Shown here piece by piece: positions 31,309 to 40,848 of a DNA stretch of 64,000 nucleotides; positions within the stretch are counted from its first letter, which is position 1; each line of letters begins with the position of its first letter. The stretch lies in assembly GCF_014295415.1 (NCBI RefSeq), contig NZ_CP052909.1, positions 186,001-250,000 of the forward strand, given 5' to 3'. The notes under the pieces were generated by a model, which saw only the letters and a program-made list of their open reading frames with translations, did no database searches and was not told where the DNA came from. This DNA is from Constantimarinum furrinae. Lineage in GTDB: Bacteria > Bacteroidota > Bacteroidia > Flavobacteriales > Flavobacteriaceae. A program made the position numbers and the translations under genes.

Positions 31309-32487
31309 CTAATAAGTAAATATACCGTTGCTAGTTTTAATAGTAAGTTGTCTTTTTTCTGAAGCCTCCACACGACCAATAACCCGAGCGTCTATATTGA
31401 AAGATTCCGAGATCTCAATGATCTTCTGGGCTTCGGAGGAAGGTACGTATAATTCCATTCGATGTCCCATATTGAATACCTGATACATTTCTTTCCAATC
31501 GGTTCCGCTTTCAGACTGAATTAGTTTGAAAAGCGGGGGTACCGGAAATAAATTGTCTTTAATGACATGGAGTTTGTCTACAAAGTGAAGGATCTTTGTC
31601 TGGGCTCCACCACTGCAATGTACCATTCCATGAATATTTTTCCTATCCAGTTTAGATAATATCGACTTTATAACCGGTGCGTAAGTACGTGTTGGTGACA
31701 AAACTAACTTCCCGGCGTTTAGCGGGCTATCCTCAACATCGTCCAGTAATTCCTTTGTACCCGAATACACCAAAGAAGAGGGTACCGAGGGGTCAAAGCT
31801 CTCCGGATATTTCGTGCCTAGGGTATGATTAAATACGTCATGTCTAGCAGATGTAAGTCCATTGCTTCCCATGCCCCCGTTATATTCCTTTTCATAGGTA
31901 GCTTGTCCAAAGGAAGCCAGGCCAACTATCACATCCCCGGGTACTATATTTGCATTATCTAGTACATCACTTCGCTTCATCCGGGCAGTCACCGTGGAAT
32001 CCACTATAATCGTACGGACAAGATCGCCTACATCGGCAGTTTCTCCGCCAGTTGAGTGAATTTGAACTCCAAAATCTGACAGCTCATTTATAAGTTCTTC
32101 AGAACCATTAATGAGTGCAGAAATAACTTCTCCCGGAATAACATTCTTGTTTCGGCCAATGGTAGAAGAAAGCATAATATTATCAACTGCTCCTACACAC
32201 AACAGATCGTCAATATTCATTATAAGCGCGTCCTGTGCGATCCCCTTCCAAACAGAAAGATCTCCGGTTTCTTTCCAATACATATAGGCAAGTGATGATT
32301 TGGTCCCTGCTCCATCTGCATGCATTACAAGACAGTAATCCTCATCCCCGCTGAGGTAGTCTGGTACAATTTTACAAAATGCCTTAGGAAACAGGCCTTT
32401 ATCCACATTCTCAATAGCGTTGTGAACATCTTCCTTACCGGCCGAAACTCCTCGCTGCGCGTACCTTTTTGAAATATCCTGACTCAT
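31309..32487 (-). CDS. purM: phosphoribosylformylglycinamidine cyclo-ligase (AIR synthetase)
   Basis: 392 residues from the ATG at 32485-32487 (MSQDISKRYAQRGVSAGKEDV); the frame extends upstream but contains no better start. It makes aminoimidazole ribotide in purine synthesis. Seen: VMHADGAGTKSSLAYMY, NIDDLLCVGA, IHSTGGETADVGDLV and FNMGHRMELY. Somewhat longer than the E. coli enzyme, as usual in Bacteroidota. The 31111-31308 gap holds nothing recognisable. Confidence 0.93.
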   Translation of the reverse strand: MSQDISKRYAQRGVSAGKEDVHNAIENVDKGLFPKAFCKIVPDYLSGDEDYCLVMHADGAGTKSSLAYMYWKETGDLSVWKGIAQDALIMNIDDLLCVGAVDNIMLSSTIGRNKNVIPGEVISALINGSEELINELSDFGVQIHSTGGETADVGDLVRTIIVDSTVTARMKRSDVLDNANIVPGDVIVGLASFGQATYEKEYNGGMGSNGLTSARHDVFNHTLGTKYPESFDPSVPSSLVYSGTKELLDDVEDSPLNAGKLVLSPTRTYAPVIKSILSKLDRKNIHGMVHCSGGAQTKILHFVDKLHVIKDNLFPVPPLFKLIQSESGTDWKEMYQVFNMGHRMELYVPSSEAQKIIEISESFNIDARVIGRVEASEKRQLTIKTSNGIFTY

Positions 32488-32518
32488 AATAAGATTTGCT
32501 ACAAAAGTAATCAATAAA

Positions 32519-32543
32519 AAAAAGCCCACAAGGTGAGCTTTTT
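32519..32543 (-). terminator. terminator at the end of the curli-type operon
   Basis: AAAAAGC-C-CAC and GTG-A-GCTTTTT arms with an AAG loop and one C-A mismatch. On the minus strand the stem itself ends in a long T run. It lies 20 bp past the stop of the last operon gene and ahead of purM. Confidence 0.75.
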
Positions 32544-32562: not shown

Positions 32563-34059
32563 TTACTCCCAATCGGGCATAAAGGCATTGCTGAACATTA
32601 GCTCTCTGGTATCGGCAACATTAATTTCCAAAGTATAAACATCCTTTTGCGAAATACCGTCATTAGACGTGTTCATAAATACCACAAAGGCTTCATTTGG
32701 TGAAAAAATGGGGTCGAGATCTGATGTCCCGTTCGGTTTATTATCTGAAATATCTGTAGTCGTGCCTGAAGGAATATCATAAAGGAAGATACGTGAATCC
32801 AATCGGCGATACGACGGTGCCTCATAGCCTGAAACGTCGTATGAATAAACCACAGATTGATTAGTAACCGACAGACTTAGTCCGCTTACACCCCCGGGAA
32901 CTCCCGTTAATATAGTATCTATAACCGTTCCGGAAAAATCTATGGTAAAGACATTTACATTATATCCGTTGATATCGTTTGTTTTTAAGGCGATCAGATT
33001 ATCGGTATCACTTACCGATACTTCAGAGATAAACGATCCATCAACTGTTTGATACACCATTTCAATTCCTAATCCGTTGGTTTTGATTCGATACAGCTTA
33101 TCGAAATTCGGAAAATAGATATAATCACTGTTTAACGGCCATGAAAAATTGATTTCATTTAAATTAAAACCGTTAGGCTTAACTGTTGAGGTTATCCTTG
33201 TAATGTTTGAACCATCTCTGTCCATGGTATAAATATCGGTCGAAGCACCATCAGACTGGAAAAAAGCAATTCGGTTAGCGGTAATATTGCGTCTTGGTCG
33301 ATAACTGTTCATTTCCTGAGATGTAAGCTGAAATTCGGTTCCATCCTCATCTGCTGAAAATATCACATTATTTCCATCAATATTTCTTACAAACAAAAAT
33401 CGGTTATCACCGGGAGCGCCAATCACTTCAAAGGTGCCCACGGGACTTAGTACGGGATCGTTAATACCATCGCTCACGGAAACCTGCCAGAAATACTGTG
33501 CTCCAAGCATTAAAGGAGAATAGGTAAATGTGGTATCTTCTATGTCTTCAAACAATAGCACATCATTGTTTTGGTCATTTCTGAGCTCCAGACTATAGGT
33601 AAGAGGATCCTCTTCAGGGTCTGTGGCCGACCATTCGAAAACGGCTTCGATGCTTTGTAACACCTCATTCTCGCCGGGTGCGATCAACTGAGGAGCTGTT
33701 GGCGGCCTATTATTTGCGGTAGAAACTTCAAGTTCAAAAACTACTTGTACAGTACGATTAGCCTGTACTGTTGTGGGTTCAAAATCGGTAATATATCCTT
33801 CAACCCGTGCTTCAACGGCAAAATCACCAACCGGTACATTTTCAATGGTAAATTTCCCGTTACTGTCAGTAAAAACGGTGCTGGAAATGGGTTGCGTAGA
33901 TATTCTCACATTTTCCAGAGGGGTATTTGTTCCGGAGGCAACTACAGTTCCCTGAATCGTTCCAAAATCAAACTCTCCGATTCTATCCTCATTACACGAT
34001 GTAAAAAGGATTAATAACATACCAACACTTATATAAAATATCTTAGTAACTCTCCTCAT
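32563..34059 (-). CDS. propeller-type lipoprotein, last gene of the curli-type operon
   Basis: 498 residues: lipoprotein signal (ILFTSC, Cys22), a carboxypeptidase-regulatory-like beta sandwich (about 30-115; GTIQGTVVASGTNTPLENVR), an FN3-like domain (about 118-215; PPTAPQLIAPGENEV) and a TolB/PD40-like repeat region (about 218-498; repeats such as IYTMDRDGSNITRITS). It starts 2 bp after the csgG-like stop and belongs to the same transcript. Not part of the classical csg set. Its surface-type domains suggest anchoring or chaperoning of the fibre, which is an inference. Confidence 0.85.
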   Translation of the reverse strand: MRRVTKIFYISVGMLLILFTSCNEDRIGEFDFGTIQGTVVASGTNTPLENVRISTQPISSTVFTDSNGKFTIENVPVGDFAVEARVEGYITDFEPTTVQANRTVQVVFELEVSTANNRPPTAPQLIAPGENEVLQSIEAVFEWSATDPEEDPLTYSLELRNDQNNDVLLFEDIEDTTFTYSPLMLGAQYFWQVSVSDGINDPVLSPVGTFEVIGAPGDNRFLFVRNIDGNNVIFSADEDGTEFQLTSQEMNSYRPRRNITANRIAFFQSDGASTDIYTMDRDGSNITRITSTVKPNGFNLNEINFSWPLNSDYIYFPNFDKLYRIKTNGLGIEMVYQTVDGSFISEVSVSDTDNLIALKTNDINGYNVNVFTIDFSGTVIDTILTGVPGGVSGLSLSVTNQSVVYSYDVSGYEAPSYRRLDSRIFLYDIPSGTTTDISDNKPNGTSDLDPIFSPNEAFVVFMNTSNDGISQKDVYTLEINVADTRELMFSNAFMPDWE

Positions 34060-34061
34060 CT

Positions 34062-35477
34062 CTAAAAATGTTCGTTAGTTTTTAATTTAGATTTCTTAGA
34101 ACCAAAATGATAATTTAGACCAAAACCAAAAGTGTAAAAGAAATCGTCTCTTCTTCCTCCCGGCTGATTGTCGATTTTATCGGAAAAGGTTCGGTTAAAA
34201 TCACCGGTTAATACAAAAGATACCCGGTCTGATACTGCATATTCAAGTCCGGCCCCAAATTTTAATGCAAAAAAGGAATCCCAGCGTTGTAAATAAAGGG
34301 AAGGCGAATCGTCAGCAAATAACAGGATCTCAGGTCCGGCAAAAATAAATGGTGATAATCGATCATGTGGCAAAATATTATACTCGACATTAAAGCTTTC
34401 ACTTAGCCACCAATGATTGGTTTCTTCGGTAGAATTCAATTTAAATATCTGAAATCTGGATGAAATACTCAATTCGGGAATTAAACGATATTTATATCCC
34501 AGTTCGGCCATATAGTCTAACTGACCCGAAGTATAATCTCCATCAACCAGCGCAACGCCACCCGAAACATTGAACGCATGCTTAAAATCGTGCTTAAGAT
34601 ATTTTCGATCATATAAGGCTGTGGATTCTTCCAATTGCTTTTCTATAAGATATTCTTCAACCAATTCCTTATCCTTTTCCTCTCCATCGGCAGATGTCCA
34701 TAATTTATCCTGAATACCTTCAAGGATAAGTAAATGAACTGCTAGCTCAATGGCCTCCTGAACGGCCATCTGTGTTGGTTCATTTTTTGTAAAACCTGTC
34801 TCTACTTCCAACAATCGTTGAAAATTCACATACTTAAAAATACCGACATCAACCGATTGAGAAAGTATGGTCTTTGATACATTAACTGTTTTTAAAACCT
34901 CTCCGGTAGAGGTAGATATTGCTCGCAAATAAACCGTAATCCTGTCCTGTCTGTACTGTGATGAACCTCCTGTTCCGAAATATCGTGCTCCAACACCACC
35001 GGTCATTAAATTGGTGTCATAAGAAATAACACCACCCTCCAGTAATATTCCGGCAAAAAGCAGAGGATTCAACCTTTGTACCGGGTCATCGGCAGATTTC
35101 CTGTATTCGTCTCTTGTTGTTCTAATTATATTTCTTTCGTTAAGAAGATTATTAAGGTTCTCACGTTCTATGGGCCTGAACCATTTTGAATCTTCCAACG
35201 CCTTAATGAGAATGGTTGTAGCACCCTGAGTGACAGCGGTGCTAAACGTACTTCCGTTTTCTATGTTTTTATACTGACCTGTCTGATCTTTAAAATTATA
35301 AACACCCACTACAATCGGGCTTAAAGGTTTGGGTAAATCCTTTAATTTTCGGGTCTGGTTTGTCACTTCGGCCATTCTGGCATCCTGAGGTGCAATAGGC
35401 TGGTTAAAATAAGCCCCACAACCCGTAAGAAGTAATACAAAAGATATAAGCAGCGTATTTCGTAAATATATAATCAT
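34062..35477 (-). CDS. csgG: CsgG-type curli secretion pore with C-terminal barrel-like extension
   Basis: 471 residues against about 277 for E. coli CsgG. Lipoprotein signal (LLLLTGC, Cys20), then the CsgG domain (about 40-285) with VGVYNFKDQTGQYK, FSTAVTQGATTILIKALEDS, FRPIERENLNNLLNERNIIR and the channel-forming stretch around GGVISYDTNLMTGG. The extra C-terminal about 170 residues (from KHAFNVSGGVALV) alternate polar and hydrophobic residues and end in FGLNYHFGSKK, typical of a small outer-membrane beta-barrel domain. It exports curlin subunits across the outer membrane. Starts 9 bp after csgF. Confidence 0.92.
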   Translation of the reverse strand: MIIYLRNTLLISFVLLLTGCGAYFNQPIAPQDARMAEVTNQTRKLKDLPKPLSPIVVGVYNFKDQTGQYKNIENGSTFSTAVTQGATTILIKALEDSKWFRPIERENLNNLLNERNIIRTTRDEYRKSADDPVQRLNPLLFAGILLEGGVISYDTNLMTGGVGARYFGTGGSSQYRQDRITVYLRAISTSTGEVLKTVNVSKTILSQSVDVGIFKYVNFQRLLEVETGFTKNEPTQMAVQEAIELAVHLLILEGIQDKLWTSADGEEKDKELVEEYLIEKQLEESTALYDRKYLKHDFKHAFNVSGGVALVDGDYTSGQLDYMAELGYKYRLIPELSISSRFQIFKLNSTEETNHWWLSESFNVEYNILPHDRLSPFIFAGPEILLFADDSPSLYLQRWDSFFALKFGAGLEYAVSDRVSFVLTGDFNRTFSDKIDNQPGGRRDDFFYTFGFGLNYHFGSKKSKLKTNEHF

Positions 35478-35486
35478 ACAGACTGT

Positions 35487-35861
35487 CTAATTAGGAACAA
35501 TTATTTGCGTTTGTTCGCCGGTGGTAATGTCTAAAATATTTATAACAAGACCTTCATTCGATTCGTAAACCTCGTACTCCAGATTTCCATTCTGAGATGT
35601 GCCAAGTGGAGGTAGCTCTCCCTGTCCGAACTGGCCTCCTAATAGTTGATTATTTAAACTATTGTTTAAAGCTCCAAGATCACCGAAGTCACCAAACTGA
35701 CTCTCATCGGTAAACGGATTCTGAGCGTTGGCCGAATTTAACAACCAGGTATAATTAAATGGGTCCCCTCCAAATGCCGGGTTTTTAGGAGTATACACGA
35801 ATTGTTGTCCAAATGCGTAGGAGCTTCCTACCAAAAATAATATCGTAACTATGGTTTTCAT
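35487..35861 (-). CDS. csgF: curli assembly component CsgF
   Basis: 124 residues with a Sec signal peptide (to about residue 18). The mature start QFVYTPKNPAFGGDPFNYTW followed by LLNSANAQN is the CsgF signature, the segment known to insert into the CsgG pore. The C-terminal part (LEYEVYESNEGLVINILDITTGEQTQIIVPN) is the beta domain. CsgF couples secretion to nucleation at the cell surface. Sits between csgE and csgG with 9-11 bp spacers. Confidence 0.93.
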   Translation of the reverse strand: MKTIVTILFLVGSSYAFGQQFVYTPKNPAFGGDPFNYTWLLNSANAQNPFTDESQFGDFGDLGALNNSLNNQLLGGQFGQGELPPLGTSQNGNLEYEVYESNEGLVINILDITTGEQTQIIVPN

Positions 35862-35872
35862 AATAAACGTTT

Positions 35873-36655
35873 TTAAAATCTTCTCACGTAATCTTTACTT
35901 TCTTCCAGATACTTAAAATGAAGAAAAACTCTTCGTATAGATTCAGTTGCCGCTTGCTTTAGAAAATCGGTTTGGGGACGAACAAAGAACTCGAATATAA
36001 CTTCGTTCGCAACCAATATCTGAATTTTCGTATTGTTAGCAAGTGCCAATTCTTCTTTAACCGTTACCACTTCTCTACCATTCAGGTTATTATTTTGATA
36101 TAGAGAAGAGAATTCCTTAAAGAAATCACGCCCGGGTTTAGTTTTGGTTTCCTCTAATACTATTCCTCTTAAAAAAACCCCATCACTATTATCATGTTGA
36201 GCATCCGGCGAGAGGTTTAGTTCCTTTTCTTCCTTAAGTGCCTGTTCCTTATTATCTGCTTCAGTACCGTTTATAACGATTCGGTCTTTTCCCTTTAGAT
36301 TATTTTCCAGATCATATATTAACAAAAGTATAATGATCCTATCTGTATCGCCGGCATTAATTGTGGTGGAGGAGAGATTACTTTTTTGTCCGGCATCAAG
36401 GACAATTCTACCGCTCTGATCATTTTTACTTCTATTAGAACTTTGCGGGTCATTTTTTATAACAGAAAGGACATACCGTACACTCTGACTAAATTCCGTT
36501 TTGTTAAATGCAGAACCGGTTATACTTATGAATTCAGTGTTGCTCTCCATATTGATCTTCGCCTCAATTTCAGTATTGTAGATCTGTGAATACCCAATAT
36601 GAGTCGTCAATAGAAGACACATTAGTGTTAGCGTGTATTTAAAATCAAAAAACAA
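35873..36655 (-). CDS. csgE: CsgE with N-terminal CsgH-like domain
   Basis: 260 residues, twice the length of E. coli CsgE (about 129). After a signal peptide (to about residue 23) comes a beta domain (about 30-130) with SVRYVLSVIKNDPQSSNR, QSGRIVLDAGQ and LSSTTINAGD, which resembles the CsgH chaperone fold. The C-terminal half (about 155-250) is CsgE: GVFLRGIVLEETKTKPGRDF, FSSLYQN, NEVIFEFFVRPQTDFL. CsgE caps CsgG and selects cargo; CsgH of alphaproteobacteria inhibits premature amyloid formation. The fusion assignment of the N-terminal part is an inference from pattern only. Confidence 0.85.
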   Translation of the reverse strand: MFFDFKYTLTLMCLLLTTHIGYSQIYNTEIEAKINMESNTEFISITGSAFNKTEFSQSVRYVLSVIKNDPQSSNRSKNDQSGRIVLDAGQKSNLSSTTINAGDTDRIIILLLIYDLENNLKGKDRIVINGTEADNKEQALKEEKELNLSPDAQHDNSDGVFLRGIVLEETKTKPGRDFFKEFSSLYQNNNLNGREVVTVKEELALANNTKIQILVANEVIFEFFVRPQTDFLKQAATESIRRVFLHFKYLEESKDYVRRF

Positions 36656-36661
36656 GATAAA

Positions 36662-37198
36662 TTATCTTTTAAAATTTCGAACAAAAACCGTTTGCTTCTT
36701 TCCCTGCATTGTAATTAGCATAGAATCTGAAATAGAGTTTGTACCGGTCCAGATCAAATTCTGGTTGGTTCCTCTCTGAATTACAGTAGCGGTATGAAAA
36801 GCATTTCCTGTTAAACTTAGGTCCAAAAATGAGTTGTTATATCCCAATTGATAAACATTCTCAAAAATATTCTTGGAAGCAATATTTAACTGAATTTCAT
36901 TATTATTTCCTCGCTGAAAGAGTTGAATTCGGCTCTTGTCAGAAATAGTATTTGCAATTGAGCTATTGTAATTTCCAACCTGCTCAATATAAATGGCATT
37001 GTTTAGGGAAGAGTTGGTAATGTTAGTGGAGGTAGATGCCTGAGAGGCGATAAATGTCTGTTGTGCCGCAGCACTTTCAATGTTTTTTATTCCTGAAGTG
37101 GAACCTGAGGATGTATACGTTTGTGCCAGTGACACTGTTGTGGCCAACATAAGAATTATAACACCATATTTAAAAATGAATTTCATCATTTTGACCAC
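36662..37198 (-). CDS. minor curlin-like protein (CsgB-like)
   Basis: 178 residues: signal peptide ending SLAQ (about 26), a Ser/Thr/Ala-rich spacer, then irregular curlin repeats of the N-x-x-x-x-x-Q-x-G type (IYIEQVGNYNSS, IQLFQRGNNNEI, ENVYQLGYNNSF, ATVIQRGTNQNL). It ends in a basic tail (GKKQTVFVRNFKR). Degenerate repeats and a basic end fit a nucleator/minor subunit role as in CsgB, but sequence alone does not prove it. ATGs at codons 1, 4 and 5 are all possible starts. csgE follows after 6 bp. Confidence 0.8.
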   Translation of the reverse strand: MVKMMKFIFKYGVIILMLATTVSLAQTYTSSGSTSGIKNIESAAAQQTFIASQASTSTNITNSSLNNAIYIEQVGNYNSSIANTISDKSRIQLFQRGNNNEIQLNIASKNIFENVYQLGYNNSFLDLSLTGNAFHTATVIQRGTNQNLIWTGTNSISDSMLITMQGKKQTVFVRNFKR

Positions 37199-37256
37199 TT
37201 AATTATTTTAATGAAGTTACGTGATATTATTGATAATCGCTATCAATTTTTTATGA

Positions 37257-37298
37257 AATAATGTATAAGAGCATTTTTCAACACCCTTATACATTATT
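37257..37298 (-). promoter_or_regulatory. 13-bp inverted repeat between the two curlin genes
   Basis: AATAATGTATAAG and CTTATACATTATT are perfect complements with a 16-nt loop, in the 132-bp gap between the major curlin gene and the rest of the operon. No clean T tract follows on the minus strand. A second small repeat, ATTGATA-N5-TATCAAT, lies at 37229-37247. Likely an mRNA-stabilising or attenuating hairpin that lets the major subunit be made in excess, or an operator. Confidence 0.65.
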
Positions 37299-37330
37299 TT
37301 CAACATAAGAATCTTATACTTAAAAGAGTC

Positions 37331-38152
37331 TTATAGATTGTGCTGTACAACAGAAGAAGTGTTTCCGGCTCCTAACTGAATTACAGTACTCATGTGTCCA
37401 AGACCGTGCTGATGCGTGTAGCTAAAGTTTAAAAGACCAACTTGAAGAACATCAGAATCGTTGTCTCTTCCATATTGCTCAGTCCAAGAACCGTTTCCGG
37501 CTCCAATTTGCCATGTGTCAGAATCGTTTCTTCTTCCATGTTGATCAGTAACACTCCAGTTACCTAGACCTAACTGAACAGAAGTAGAAGTATTTCTTCT
37601 TCCCATTTCATGAACATACGCATAGTTGAAAGCTCCAACTTGAACCGCATAAGCATCGTTACGACGTCCTTCCTGGTCGATATCAGAAACGTTTCCAAGA
37701 CCGATCTGAATAGCGTCTGCATCGTTACGACGACCAATTTGGTCAATGTCAGATTCGTTACTCCATCCTAATTGGAACGTATTCGCATCGTTACGTCTTC
37801 CCTGCTGATACACGTCAGAGTCGTTATCAAGACCCAATTGTACAACATTAGACTCGTTACGACGTCCTCTCTGATCTACTTCAGAATAGTTGTCGGCACC
37901 AATCTGAAGTACATCAGATTCGTTAAGACGTCCTCTCTGATCAACATCAGACTGGTTCTCAACTCCAAGTTGATCTACGTCAGAATCATTCGCAATTCCT
38001 AATTGGAACACATCAGAATCATTCAGTAAACCTGTTTGATCAACATCAGAATTGTTAAGAAGTCCTACTTGAAGAACATCACTGTCATTAAACTGAGCAA
38101 ACCCTACGGTTGCTACCATTAGTGCTAATGCACTTAGAATCACTTTTTTCAT
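37331..38152 (-). CDS. csgA: major curlin-like amyloid subunit with 23 gapless 11-residue repeats
   Basis: 273 residues. A Sec signal peptide (MKKVILSALALMVATVGFAQ) is followed at once by 23 consecutive 11-residue units of the form N-x-S/A-x-x-x-Q-x-G-x-x (for example NDSDVLQVGLL, NESDVDQ-type variants, NDADAIQIGLG), ending in VVQHNL. No residues separate units. Alternate units differ: one set carries QLG/QIG with hydrophobic ends, the other QRGRR or QEGRR with Arg pairs. Two units would make one strand-loop-strand coil of the curlin cross-beta fold. Most likely the major fibre subunit; gene symbol by analogy. Confidence 0.88.
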   Translation of the reverse strand: MKKVILSALALMVATVGFAQFNDSDVLQVGLLNNSDVDQTGLLNDSDVFQLGIANDSDVDQLGVENQSDVDQRGRLNESDVLQIGADNYSEVDQRGRRNESNVVQLGLDNDSDVYQQGRRNDANTFQLGWSNESDIDQIGRRNDADAIQIGLGNVSDIDQEGRRNDAYAVQVGAFNYAYVHEMGRRNTSTSVQLGLGNWSVTDQHGRRNDSDTWQIGAGNGSWTEQYGRDNDSDVLQVGLLNFSYTHQHGLGHMSTVIQLGAGNTSSVVQHNL

Positions 38153-38661
38153 AATTTAAAAGATTTAAAGATTAATATTGGTTAATAAAAATTTTTGTCT
38201 CATTTTGCTAGGTGTAAAACTAGGTTACACTGTTTACCAAATCATAACTTAAACGATTTGAAACTATTAAGTATGTCTTATACTTTTCGCATACCATTAA
38301 AATACATTTCGCTACGCTTTAATGTATTCGTTCTTTCAAAGATCAATGTGAAAAATCCTCACATTCGGTTTACACCATATTATAATTCAGCCTGTGGCCT
38401 TTGGTTAAGTTATGGGTAAATAATTGAGGAGTAATAGAGTTGAGTTTACGATTCGTTATAAACTAAATTCTGTATCAAATATCTAAAAAATAATCATACA
38501 AAGTAATACGTGCTAACACGTATTTTACTGATAATCAGTATTGTGTAAGAATTTTCCTATTAACGAAATTAGTAGGAATCGACCTACGTATAAAAAAGCC
38601 GCCTAAGGGTTAGGCGGCTTATAAAAATAGCAGAAATCTAATATGTTAAAGTTTTGTTAAA
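38153..38661. promoter_or_regulatory. 509-bp upstream region of the curli-type operon with several inverted repeats
   Basis: No convincing gene. Contains four short palindromes: AAGTAT-N5-ATACTT (38269-38285), AATACATT-N12-AATGTATT (38301-38328), AATACGTG-N4-CACGTATT (38505-38524) and TACTGAT-A-ATCAGTA (38526-38540), plus the glnA terminator (38596-38620). The decamer TCTTATACTT (38276-38285) recurs at 37312-37321 before the second curlin gene. The length and density of repeats suggest complex control of the amyloid operon. No exact TAnnTTTG is seen on the minus strand. Confidence 0.5.
38596..38620 (-). terminator. terminator of glnA
   Basis: Perfect 11-bp arms AAGCCGCCTAA and TTAGGCGGCTT with loop GGG; followed by TTTTTTA on the minus strand. 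41 bp past the glnA stop. Confidence 0.93.
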
Positions 38662-40848
38662 TTACTTTGTAAACAGCAATTCACGGTACTTTGTGAGGGG
38701 CCAGATCTCATCATCGACCAATAATTCGAGCTTATCGCAATGATATCTAATAATATCAAAGTAAGGTTTTACCTTCACACAATAGGCCGAAGCCTTCTTT
38801 TCTGCATCATCAATTTTATTAGCTTTCTTACGTTCATTAATCATATCGGTAATCCCTTTATTAATATTTTCGATATGCTTCGAAATTTGCTCAATCAACT
38901 GCATCTGCTCTCCGGCGATTTTCTTAAAATTCGTACCATAAATATCTTTAATTCCTCGCACGTTTTCAATTAATATATTTTGGTATCTGATAGCTGTAGG
39001 TATAACATGGTTTCTGGCAATGTCTCCTAAAATTCTTCCTTCTATCTGGATACGCAGTGCATATTCATCTGTTTCGATCTCATAACGAGCTTCCATTTCT
39101 GTCTTACTCATTATTCCCAATTCTTCAAACAAGGCAATCGATTTTTTGGATACTTTCGCTTTTAATGCTTCAGGGGTGGTCTTGTGATTACTCAAACCAC
39201 GCTTCTTCGCTTCTTTCTCCCAGGCTTCACCGTATCCGTCACCTTCAAAACGAATTCGTTTTGAATCCTGAATATATTCACGAAGTACATTAAATATAGC
39301 ATCATCCTTCTTCATCTTCTTGTCTTTAATAAGACCATCTACCTGCTTTTTAAAATCCATCAACTGCTTTGCTACTATGGCATTCAGTACTGTCATTGGA
39401 TTCGCGCAATTGGCGGTGGATCCTACGGCACGCAATTCGAACTTATTTCCAGTAAAGGCAAACGGCGAAGTTCTGTTCCTGTCGGTATTGTCCAATAAGA
39501 TCTCAGGTATCTTTCCTACCACGTTTAATTTAAGGTCGGTTTTTTCTTGTGGCGATAGTTTTCCATTGGTTACTTTTTCCAACTCATCTAAAACTTCAGT
39601 GAGCTGAGACCCAATGAAAACTGAAATGATGGCCGGGGGTGCTTCATTTGCTCCCAGACGATGATCGTTACTGGCGCTTGCGATCGACGCTCTAATTAAC
39701 TCCTCATGTTCATTAACTGCCTTAATGGTGTTGATGAAAAAGGTTAAGAACTGAAGGTTCTTCATTGGAGTACTTCCTGGTCCTAAAAGGTTCACTCCGG
39801 TATTTGTAGCCAGAGACCAGTTGTTGTGCTTCCCGCTACCGTTTACTCCTGCAAATGGTTTTTCGTGAAACAATACCTTAAAATTGTGCCGATCTGCGAT
39901 CTTGTCCATTACATCCATTAATAAGGAGTTGTGATCGACCGCAAGATTTGTTTCTTCAAAAATTGGCGCTAATTCAAATTGATTTGGAGCTACCTCGTTG
40001 TGTCGCGTCTTTACAGGTATTCCCAAATACATACATTCGGTTTCAAGATCCCGCATATAATTTAAAACGCGAGCAGGAATAGATCCAAAATAATGATCGT
40101 CCAACTGTTGTCCCTTAGCTGAAGCATGTCCCAGTAAGGTTCTCCCTGCCAAAGAAATATCCGGGCGGGATGCAGCAAGCGCCTTATCAATTAAAAAATA
40201 CTCCTGCTCCCACCCTAAGGTTGCGTTTACTTTGGTTACGTTTTTATCGAAATACTTCGCTACGGCTGTTGCAGCCGTGTCAATCACCTGAAGTGCCCTT
40301 AGTAATGGAGTCTTATAATCCAAGGCCTCTCCGGTGTAGGCTACAAAAACAGTAGGTATACAAAGGGTTGTTCCGTAAATAAATGCAGGTGAAGTGGGAT
40401 CCCAGGCTGTATATCCCCTGGCCTCAAAGGTATTTCTTATTCCTCCGTTAGGGAAACTCGAGGCATCGGGCTCTTGTTGCACCAATTGTCCACCTCCAAA
40501 TTTTTCGATAGTTTGTCCGTTACTTAAGGTTTCAAAAAAGGCATCGTGTTTTTCTGCAGTGGCTCCAGTAAGTGGTTGAAACCAGTGGGTGTAATGTGTG
40601 GCACCTTTAGAAATAGCCCACTCTTTCATTCCAGTTGAAATATGATCTGCAATGGGTCGTGCGATCTTAGTTCCGTTCTCTACCGCATCCATAATACTAG
40701 TGTAGGAGTCTTTGGTAAGATACTGTCGCATCGCATTTTCATTAAATACATTATTTCCGAAAATGGATGAGCGACGTTCGGGCTCGGTTACTTTAATTGG
40801 TTCACGATTAAATGTTTCTTTAACAGCGTGGAATCTTAATGTGGACAT
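38662..40848 (-). CDS. glnA: glutamine synthetase type III
   Basis: 728 residues, the length of the GSIII (GlnN) family rather than the 470-residue GSI. It makes glutamine from glutamate, ammonia and ATP. Seen: GWEQEYFLIDK (metal-binding Glu residues), KTRHNEVAPNQFELAPIFEE, VNGSGKHNNWSLAT, NDHRLGANEAPPAIISVFIG and the C-terminal coiled region. The 215-bp upstream gap (40849-41063) has no gene. Monocistronic, central to nitrogen assimilation. Confidence 0.97.
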   Translation of the reverse strand: MSTLRFHAVKETFNREPIKVTEPERRSSIFGNNVFNENAMRQYLTKDSYTSIMDAVENGTKIARPIADHISTGMKEWAISKGATHYTHWFQPLTGATAEKHDAFFETLSNGQTIEKFGGGQLVQQEPDASSFPNGGIRNTFEARGYTAWDPTSPAFIYGTTLCIPTVFVAYTGEALDYKTPLLRALQVIDTAATAVAKYFDKNVTKVNATLGWEQEYFLIDKALAASRPDISLAGRTLLGHASAKGQQLDDHYFGSIPARVLNYMRDLETECMYLGIPVKTRHNEVAPNQFELAPIFEETNLAVDHNSLLMDVMDKIADRHNFKVLFHEKPFAGVNGSGKHNNWSLATNTGVNLLGPGSTPMKNLQFLTFFINTIKAVNEHEELIRASIASASNDHRLGANEAPPAIISVFIGSQLTEVLDELEKVTNGKLSPQEKTDLKLNVVGKIPEILLDNTDRNRTSPFAFTGNKFELRAVGSTANCANPMTVLNAIVAKQLMDFKKQVDGLIKDKKMKKDDAIFNVLREYIQDSKRIRFEGDGYGEAWEKEAKKRGLSNHKTTPEALKAKVSKKSIALFEELGIMSKTEMEARYEIETDEYALRIQIEGRILGDIARNHVIPTAIRYQNILIENVRGIKDIYGTNFKKIAGEQMQLIEQISKHIENINKGITDMINERKKANKIDDAEKKASAYCVKVKPYFDIIRYHCDKLELLVDDEIWPLTKYRELLFTK

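Follow-up and report, generated by a model that had tools for sequence, protein, structure and literature searches.

A predicted curli-type amyloid export operon of Constantimarinum furrinae in which CsgE carries a chaperone-type domain and a csg-linked lipoprotein follows CsgG

A stretch of 64,000 nucleotides from Constantimarinum furrinae (NZ_CP052909.1, positions 186,001 to 250,000; the window) holds what is, judged from its genes alone, a complete operon for curli-type (type VIII) amyloid export in a Bacteroidota layout (Table 1). Its gene content, domain content, linkage and conservation were observed, and they are best explained, with a probability of roughly 0.55, by a complete operon with a chaperone domain fused to CsgE, an extended CsgG, and a surface lipoprotein that would dock the fibre. 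Most of what is known of curli assembly comes from enterobacteria, and the redesign described here is seen across much of the phylum.

Table 1. Features of the curli-type operon and its borders, in window coordinates.
Feature	Length	Position	Strand	Basis
Terminator-like hairpin after upstream glutamine synthetase gene		38596..38620	-	11 pairs, 6 GC, T-run
Major curlin, CsgA/B-like	273 aa	37331..38152	-	PF07012 1.2e-25; NCBIfam CsgB 7.7e-51
Intergenic region with stable hairpin, major/minor curlin	hairpin ~20 bp	37199..37330	-	folding
Minor curlin-like protein	178 aa	36662..37198	-	NCBIfam CsgA 7.7e-05, CsgB 9e-04
CsgC/CsgH-CsgE fusion (predicted)	260 aa	35873..36655	-	NF041112 CsgH, PF10627 CsgE, profiles, model
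CsgF	124 aa	35487..35861	-	PF10614 9.6e-24, profile 7-132 of 132
CsgG lipoprotein secretion channel with predicted C-terminal barrel-type domain	471 aa	34062..35477	-	PF03783, PF13505
Lipoprotein, probably surface-exposed	498 aa	32563..34059	-	PF13620, model, N-terminal statistics, linkage
Terminator-like hairpin closing the unit		32519..32543	-	11 pairs, 4 GC, T-run

An ORF check of the window recovered six minus-strand ORFs from 38152 to 32563, encoding the major curlin, minor curlin, CsgE, CsgF, CsgG and lipoprotein, as the initial annotation had listed them on one strand. The tight spacing of 2-11 bp that it gave from the minor curlin through the lipoprotein also held, with measured gaps of 6 bp (minor curlin/CsgE), 11 bp (CsgE/CsgF), 9 bp (CsgF/CsgG) and 2 bp (CsgG/lipoprotein), while the major curlin is set apart by 132 bp. 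The signatures it had called for CsgE, CsgF and CsgG were recovered with Pfam (PF10627, 1.3e-11, and PF10614, both above cut-off; PF03783, 2.5e-65), and the channel homologue and the CsgE and CsgF homologues thereby share one locus. Curlin repeats were found as PF07012 matches in the major curlin (10 detected stretches), which scores 171.8 bits against NCBIfam CsgB (cut-off 165) and has a signal peptide recognised by eye; secretion of the subunits is a prediction. Both NCBIfam matches of the minor curlin lie under their cut-offs and the Pfam curlin repeat reaches only 0.2; proteins resembling it stand directly before csgE in related loci.

Between the major and minor curlin genes lies a strong hairpin that the initial annotation did not record. 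Folding of 37190-37335 gave -36.4 kcal/mol (z -6.33; 0 of 200 dinucleotide shuffles as low), and z was below -2 in 72 of 74 related gaps when compared with plain base shuffles. The hairpin has no T-tract and is possibly an attenuator or an mRNA stabiliser.

Upstream, a terminator-like hairpin separates the glutamine synthetase gene from the curli unit. At the other end, the terminator said to close the unit was found as a hairpin, but the scan total was at chance level (5 sites, 5.2 expected), so that the assignment rests on hairpin and T-run and not on statistics. A promoter and expression pattern of its own had been named as speaking against a dedicated role of the lipoprotein. No match above chance was found in front of the gene in a sigma-70-like scan (24 sites, 25.6 expected; the nearest at 34138-34110, 9/12), and none within 600 bp upstream with a Bacteroidota-type pattern. 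Across the whole window the latter consensus had 45 matches where 36.4 were expected, with as many in 8 of 100 shuffles, a near-chance total that decides little.

The view that only the sixth gene is non-classical proved incomplete, as CsgE, with its predicted CsgC/H fusion, and CsgG, with its predicted barrel-type domain, are non-classical too. The CsgE protein is laid out as a signal peptide (by eye), a CsgC/H-type domain (residues ~29-128), a low-confidence linker (131-161) and CsgE proper (162-243). For the N-terminal half both sequence and fold point to CsgC/H. NF041112 (CsgH) matches residues 33-109 at 4.1e-07 with 30 bits, under the NCBIfam cut-off of 35, and a profile search gave CsgE (2na4) at 7.6e-10 and CsgC (2xsk) at 1.7e-05. 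The predicted model resembles CsgC 2xsk with Z 12.9 (rmsd 2.3, 94 of 95 CsgC residues aligned), CsgH 2n59 with Z 11.7 and CsgE 2na4 with Z 11.3; unrelated enzyme domains reach Z 12.0 with the CsgC/H-type model, so the fold match alone is not specific. In an alignment of 15 members, chosen from loci showing the CsgC/H domain, CsgH matched 13, CsgC 11 and CsgE 14 at E 0.1, and the CsgC/H domain went undetected in 20 of 123 sources at E 1e-3. In five distant loci the CsgC/H-type domain has a gene to itself, which lies upstream of the gene for the lipoprotein with the carboxypeptidase-regulatory domain (CRD).

From these matches and the model, CsgE of the window is predicted to be fused to a chaperone domain of the CsgC/CsgH fold, with putative amyloid inhibition, where the known CsgC and CsgH chaperones share the fold but not the fusion. 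Bacteroidetes have been reported to be without csgC. CsgH-like sequences in Bacteroidetes are mentioned by Taylor et al. (PMC4838910), whose main text contains neither "fusion" nor "fused". The putative amyloid-blocking chaperone, reported missing, would be there after all, covalently joined to the gate adaptor, which suggests that holding and delivery of subunits are one step.

In CsgG, E. coli CsgG from the PDB (7.5e-66) aligns with residues 9-276 only, and residues 298-458 match the outer-membrane barrel-type profile PF13505 (OMP_b-brl) with 31.2 bits (cut-off 28.7). PF03783 is found in all 25 aligned CsgG members and PF13505 in 16, with nine falling short of it at E 0.01. By this profile match, the channel is predicted to carry an added C-terminal outer-membrane barrel-type domain.

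The lipoprotein has a lipobox with C22 followed by N-E-D, a CRD (34-111), an FN3-like domain (~120-212) and a TolB-like beta-propeller (~216-498). Of these three domains, all named in the initial annotation, the CRD is well matched (PF13620, 4.1e-12, 46.7 bits, cut-off 32.3). The propeller is clear in the predicted model (pLDDT 88.8; TolB 1crz, Z 26.9 over 251 residues) and weak in the single sequence (TolB 2.3e-06), and the FN3-like domain was reached by profile only, with no Pfam match above cut-off. A 22-row profile retrieved TolB chains from 1.7e-08 and matched FN3-bearing chains. With 26.8 bits against an NCBIfam equivalog cut-off of 343.15, the protein has a TolB-like propeller and is not a TolB orthologue. 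It was also rejected as a known defence-system protein, PADLOC giving no match at E 0.01.

Acidic residues (D/E) at both +3 and +4 were found in 97 of 103 csg lipoproteins, in 0 of 116 CsgG and in 6 of the 115 further lipoproteins predicted in those loci, with lipoboxes called by pattern and ORFs by a simple longest-ORF script. A looser rule, two acids within +2 to +6, holds for 99/103 and 33/115, respectively, and of 14 short csg-linked CRD lipoproteins without propeller a single one has both acids. The signature fits the F. johnsoniae surface export consensus SDDFE (PMC5080379, in excerpt), which suggests export to the cell surface. With C-N-E-D behind its lipobox, the window lipoprotein very probably lies on the cell surface, the export signal being a statistical signature.

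Among 388 Flavobacteriaceae genomes the lipoprotein (E 1e-60) was detected in 83, CsgF (E 1e-10) in 83 and both in 82 (Fisher p 2e-82, relatedness ignored). The two exceptions come from csg loci that are broken or run off a contig: G734 seems to lack the lipoprotein, but each of its csgG copies is followed by a lipoprotein gene truncated at a contig end, and G642, without CsgF, has the lipoprotein gene immediately after a csgG fragment. Two CsgF genes and two lipoprotein genes, in pairs, occur in G663 and likewise in G741 (same-contig distances were compared by eye). In a set of 395 phylum genomes, all 24 with full-length homologues are csg-positive. Matches at 1e-10 to any CRD, FN3 or propeller fragment occur in 316 of the 395; only the gap between the lowest full-length match (554 bits) and the next (161 bits) separates the family, and short CRD proteins were therefore counted apart. 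In named genomes (loci L074-L153, 80 of 305 relatives kept) csgG is directly upstream in all 79 testable loci; this set and L032-L073 overlap in some genomes (e.g. L034/L097, L037/L098, L035/L108, L039/L131). The family, phylum and named-locus linkage agrees with the proposal of a dedicated role and leads us to reject a generic lipoprotein adjacent by chance; homologues mostly away from csg genes, the outcome named as speaking against that role, were not seen. The lipoprotein is very likely a dedicated curli component.

That it should always be the next gene is true of the testable named loci but not of 4 of the 24 phylum genomes, where it stands behind extra curlin genes instead of csgG, nor outside the class of the window, where only 2 of 18 csg-positive genomes have the full-length form and 15 a short one. 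The short csg-linked CRD lipoproteins lack the propeller, which is hence not needed in every system. Nine weak CsgF matches, with E from 1.9e-6 to 5.1e-4, were left out of the phylum count. Four of them (G048, G173, G291, G370) exceed the curated cut-off; they are from genomes without the full-length lipoprotein and were not counted as csg loci because CsgE was not found there. The one match in a search of plasmid DNA was to a CsgG/HfaB family gene of Spirosoma and spanned 9% of the query.

In the mechanism that we propose, curlins would cross the periplasm held soluble by the CsgC/H-type domain covalently joined to CsgE, the presumed adaptor at the gate of the CsgG pore. They would exit through CsgG, each protomer of which would bear an extra small barrel-type domain, with CsgF at the exit. 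The dedicated lipoprotein would be flipped across the outer membrane to face outwards, its CRD-FN3-propeller rod held beside the CsgG/CsgF exit, where it may provide a docking site for both the minor curlin and the nascent fibre, as BtuG caps BtuB (PMC10404256, in part). Contact with CsgG, CsgF or the minor curlin is something we infer, and a role in docking or nucleation is tentative, with chances a little under even. The likeness to BtuB-BtuG is one of arrangement, an outer-membrane channel gene beside a surface beta-propeller lipoprotein gene, and no homology is claimed; BtuG is seven-bladed and binds B12, whereas the window channel is predicted to export. If this is correct, the fixed lipoprotein names a specific gene by which fibres of Bacteroidota may be initiated and kept on the cell.

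The lipoprotein might instead act at the base of the fibre as a surface adhesin or receptor, co-expressed with curli for biofilm formation and without a part in fibre making. Glycans, metals or other surfaces are candidate ligands. Many binding proteins contain CRD, FN3 and propeller folds, the propeller model is similar to the LRP6 and megalin receptors as well (Z ~22-25), and the short versions look as if an optional binding head had been lost. However, the near absolute linkage, kept where CsgF is duplicated, is tighter than expected for an accessory adhesin, and conservation runs along the whole length (63% mean column identity, nine-row alignment), so that we consider this unlikely. A PorE- or TolB-like scaffold of CsgG on the periplasmic side or on mixed faces, linking the pore to envelope parts, would suit a propeller nearest to TolB. 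PorE (PG1058) shares propeller and CRD with the window lipoprotein, albeit in a different domain order and with TPR and OmpA_C domains, which Pfam did not find in the latter. The combination in this type IX secretion-system protein is described in PMC5053529 (in excerpt). The acidic +3/+4 signature, strong in the lipoprotein and absent from CsgG of the same loci, speaks against such a scaffold, which we hold to be very improbable.

Like E. coli curli (CsgA-G, type VIII), the window has PF07012 curlins together with homologues of CsgE, CsgF and CsgG at a single locus. The window differs in being a single operon of six genes without csgD or a separate csgC, and in having the CsgC/H-type domain on CsgE, the barrel-type CsgG extension and the extra lipoprotein. 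Among the matches listed from open-licence PubMed Central text, supplements aside, none described a propeller lipoprotein linked to csg genes, a fusion of CsgC/H with CsgE, a barrel extension of CsgG or slippage in csgE.

In Flavobacterium, 15 loci have the gene for the chaperone-CsgE protein split in two, always at a tract of exactly ten A (A10), which is absent from the window itself. Owing to genome overlap among the locus sets and the near-identical CsgG of L068 and L084, these amount to about 14 independent loci. The out-of-frame half is under purifying selection, with a median dN/dS of 0.099 (48 usable pairs) against 0.083 in in-frame relatives (32 pairs), for pairs with dS 0.1-1.5 only; left out as saturated were 86/105 pairs for the split N-domain, 56/105 for the split C-domain and 157/190 per domain for 20 hand-picked in-frame Flavobacterium rows. 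A conserved slippery tract accompanies constrained out-of-frame coding, and the probable cause of the split is programmed slippage, either as a frameshift at the ribosome or during transcription; the stem-loop result below does not decide between the two. Homopolymers mutate readily and are prone to error, one relative (L073) carries A11 in frame, two others (L120 and L151) carry A10 in frame, and no consistent stimulatory stem-loop follows the tract (z 0.3 to -3.6, plain base shuffles). All of this would suit an error of sequencing, a pseudogene or a switch by phase variation. Yet the run is exactly 10 in 15/15 split loci, where a phase switch should give mixed lengths; 38 runs of at least 10 A occur in 1,336,243 bases of the named loci, and for 13 of them the stop of an ORF of at least 100 aa is no more than 45 nt away, all 13 being the csgE split site; and the starred branches of the CsgG tree require the split state to have changed at least twice. 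Together with the low dN/dS, this makes such explanations improbable.

Going further, one may picture a distinct Bacteroidota exporter in which a nine-fold CsgG pore would be ringed by nine small barrels and fed by the covalent CsgC/H-CsgE protein, a lid-like lipoprotein would gate or template outside, and A10 slippage would set the ratio of free chaperone to chaperone-adaptor in some Flavobacterium lineages; we regard this as possible but doubtful. The A10 tract is a natural experiment on the requirement for free chaperone. A comparable A-tract before a premature stop, A11, is a site of transcriptional slippage in a different gene, tssM1 of Citrobacter rodentium, where it gives two length variants, as is proposed for the A10 csgE of Flavobacterium, both of them needed (PMC4256274, in excerpt).

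The curli locus consists of six genes, with gaps of 6, 11, 9 and 2 bp within the last five and 132 bp between the upstream major curlin and the minor curlin. CsgG, CsgE, CsgF and the lipoprotein each have a single match in the genome. Judged by gene content, the locus encodes a true curli system, in a new variant form. Terminator-like hairpins lie before and after the unit (table below); since the terminator scan of the window gave a total at chance level, these calls rest on the hairpins themselves. A further long hairpin, lacking a T-run, occupies the gap between the two curlin genes (z -6.33, fold against shuffles), and the equivalent gaps in named relatives gave z < -2 in 72/74 cases under a shuffle laxer than that used for the window. 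It may act as an attenuator or RNA stabiliser that holds the major curlin in excess.

Features of the curli region, in positions of the window
Feature	Position	Strand	Remark
Type III glutamine synthetase gene	38662-40848		upstream of csg
Terminator-like hairpin before the unit	38620-38596		terminator scan of window
Curli unit	38152-32563	minus	major curlin, minor curlin, CsgE, CsgF, CsgG, lipoprotein
Lipoprotein gene	34059-32563	minus	sixth gene, 498 aa
Terminator-like hairpin after the unit	32543-32519		terminator scan of window
Bacteroidota-type promoter pattern	32531-32502		exact match; overlaps terminator, just before AIR-synthase-like gene
AIR-synthase-like gene	31309-32529		downstream of csg

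The product of the sixth gene has its lipobox cysteine at residue 22, followed by a carboxypeptidase-regulatory domain (CRD; residues 34-111, over the Pfam cut-off), an FN3-like domain and, last, a beta-propeller of TolB type. The predicted model (pLDDT 88.8) matched TolB with Z 26.9 over 251 residues at 13% identity, and a 22-row profile searched against the PDB found chains of TolB at 1.7e-08 and chains with a CRD at 2e-11.

The initial annotation had proposed that this lipoprotein is dedicated to the fibre system, a view that homologues mostly away from csg genes would contradict. Homologues were looked for, and the full-length ones found were linked to csg, so this objection does not stand. 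Across the phylum, CsgE (E 0.001) was present in 41/395 genomes, with strong CsgF in the same 41, and the full-length lipoprotein in 24/395, every one among the csg-positive genomes; of the csg-positive genomes in the window's class 22/23 had the full-length form, versus 2/18 of those outside it. Nine genomes with weak CsgF matches (E 1.9e-6 to 5.1e-4, exceeding the curated cut-off in four), and with neither CsgE nor the full-length lipoprotein, were not counted as csg-positive. Among the other 17 csg-positive genomes, 16 had a match to a short CRD lipoprotein without propeller (79-149 bits), located within about 8 kb of csgE in 15 and on another contig in one (G119), and G042 had one lipoprotein match (9.5e-15). 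Within the family, 388 Flavobacteriaceae genomes were surveyed; lipoprotein and CsgF were each found in 83, and both in 82. The exceptions are G734, in which each of the two csgG copies is followed by a lipoprotein gene truncated at a contig end, and G642, whose genome gave no CsgF match but has a full-length lipoprotein immediately after a fragment of csgG; this G642 locus (L154) is perhaps in decay. Both genes share one contig, roughly 1.4-2.1 kb apart as judged by eye, in 81/82 genomes and lie on two contigs in G532; G663 and G741 each carry two CsgF genes paired with two lipoproteins. With co-occurrence in 24/24 phylum and 82/83 family genomes, the sixth gene proves to be a real and dedicated part of the system.

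On the question, also raised there, of whether the lipoprotein always comes next after csgG, the answer is that it does in most genomes and not in all. In the named-genome loci (the best 80 of 305) csgG was the preceding gene in 79, the remaining locus, L142, beginning only 154 bp before the lipoprotein gene, too short a stretch to show its neighbour. In the phylum survey the lipoprotein stood directly behind csgG in 20/24 genomes and behind extra curlin genes in 4/24 (positions from fetched loci for 23 genomes and from match coordinates for G353).

In E. coli, CsgG faces the periplasm, and CsgG can therefore serve as an internal control for counts of surface-export signals. Acidic residues (D/E) at both +3 and +4 after the cysteine were found in 97/103 members of the lipoprotein family, 0/116 CsgG and 6/115 of the remaining lipoproteins predicted in these loci; when any two acids within +2 to +6 were accepted, the counts became 99/103, 0/116 and 33/115. 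The export signal of Bacteroidota surface lipoproteins is described as sitting right after the cysteine, with the consensus SDDFE in F. johnsoniae; in Capnocytophaga, motifs of this kind brought an otherwise periplasmic lipoprotein to the cell surface (PMC5080379). The short CRD versions (K at +3 in 9/14, E at +4 in 11/14, acids at both in 1/14) are reminiscent of the K-(D/E)2 signal of Capnocytophaga, though poorer in acids, which makes their location less certain.

More surprising than the sixth gene are the fusions and, in relatives, the splitting of csgE at a run of ten A. The N-terminal half of the window CsgE, searched alone, matched the CsgH family at 4.1e-07, under the model cut-off. 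An alignment of 15 members, including the window and picked from loci showing the N-domain, gave matches (E 0.1) to CsgH in 13, CsgC in 11 and CsgE in 14, and the fusion profile found CsgE 2na4 (7.6e-10) and CsgC 2xsk (1.7e-05) in the PDB. The predicted N-domain is nearest to CsgC (Z 12.9, 94/95 residues; CsgH Z 11.7) and the C-domain matches CsgE (Z 11.3); as unrelated enzymes also contain domains scoring up to Z 12.0, the CsgC/CsgH assignment is carried by the sequence match. Of 123 sources, made up of the window and 122 loci, 82 had both domains fused in frame, 15 had them frame-split and 5 had them as separate genes; in 20 no N-domain was detected at E 1e-3, and csgE was missing from one contig. 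Where the genes are separate (L049, L052, L055, L059, L065), the free CsgC/CsgH gene precedes the CRD lipoprotein gene in the same orientation, at a distance of up to about 0.2 kb in all but L055, where it is about 0.7 kb away. Fusion to CsgE would explain the absence of csgC from Bacteroidetes genera reported by Dueholm et al. (PMC3521004). Because CsgC and CsgH are described as inhibiting curlin amyloid formation in vitro (PMC4838910), the N-domain is most naturally read as a chaperone held on the adaptor of the pore.

The frame-split csgE genes of Flavobacterium are broken between the two domains at (G/C)AA AAA AAA AAG, ten A then G, in 15 loci, 13 of them from the named-genome set and about 14 independent (L068, L069, L081, L084, L092, L100, L107, L109, L119, L124, L129, L133, L134, L136, L144); L107 and L124 are from F. 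hibernum and F. pectinovorum. The zero frame stops 1-10 nt past the run, and the -1 frame leads into an intact CsgE domain. This out-of-frame half is under purifying selection, near in-frame relatives (median dN/dS 0.099, maximum 0.39, 48 usable pairs; in-frame relatives 0.083 and 0.26, 32 pairs). The 1,336,243 bases of named loci contain 38 runs of at least 10 A, 19 within ORFs of at least 100 aa; 13 runs lie within 45 nt of their ORF's stop, each at the csgE split site. On the CsgG tree the split state takes 3 changes, and the starred branches force at least 2. All split loci except L133 fall in one 17-row clade, whose non-split members L073 (A11), L120 and L151 (both A10) have the tract in frame. 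In-frame runs of 8-10 A occur at the same place in some Aquimarina and other loci; the window csgE is in frame and has no such tract. A_AAA_AAG is a known class of -1 motif (PMC4066793), and tssM1 offers a likeness in that a poly-A tract is reported to yield two products, both needed (PMC4256274). The Flavobacterium sequences likely reflect programmed frameshifting or transcriptional slippage.

CsgG is likewise extended. Residues 9-276 align to E. coli CsgG (277 aa), and residues 298-458 match an outer-membrane barrel profile over the cut-off. Of 25 aligned members, each longer than 440 aa, 16 match that profile at E 0.01. A nonamer would bear nine extra barrels if these domains were inserted.

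Genes, domains and linkage are observed, and on them we infer the contacts, docking and barrel insertion of the following scheme. The fused chaperone-adaptor would keep curlins soluble and deliver them to the extended CsgG, which would export them, with CsgF at the exit; in our view the propeller lipoprotein would meet them outside and dock the minor curlin and the fibre base. Partnerships of channels and surface lipoproteins, as proposed here for CsgG, are described in the same phylum for BtuB, capped by the propeller BtuG (PMC10404256), and for a BAM complex with four surface-exposed lipoproteins (PMC12578637).

Some side observations concern related sequences and the flanks. In another family, f18, seven genomes have weak CsgF matches without a CsgE match (for example G173:C1:389013-389354 and G291:C27:6491-6862); in four of the seven the curated cut-off is exceeded, and these matches possibly represent a divergent relative. 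Proteins of ~430-460 aa matching only the CRD-FN3 half occur in six genomes (G212, G196, G160, G109, G389, G156), in which profile searches found no CsgE or CsgF. A contig labelled Sulfurovum (Campylobacterota; L116) has csg genes together with the lipoprotein gene, falls among Flavobacteriaceae in the CsgG tree and is probably mis-binned. The glutamine synthetase and AIR-synthase-like genes flank csg in 62/80 and 59/80 named loci, respectively, so the site is often conserved among named relatives.
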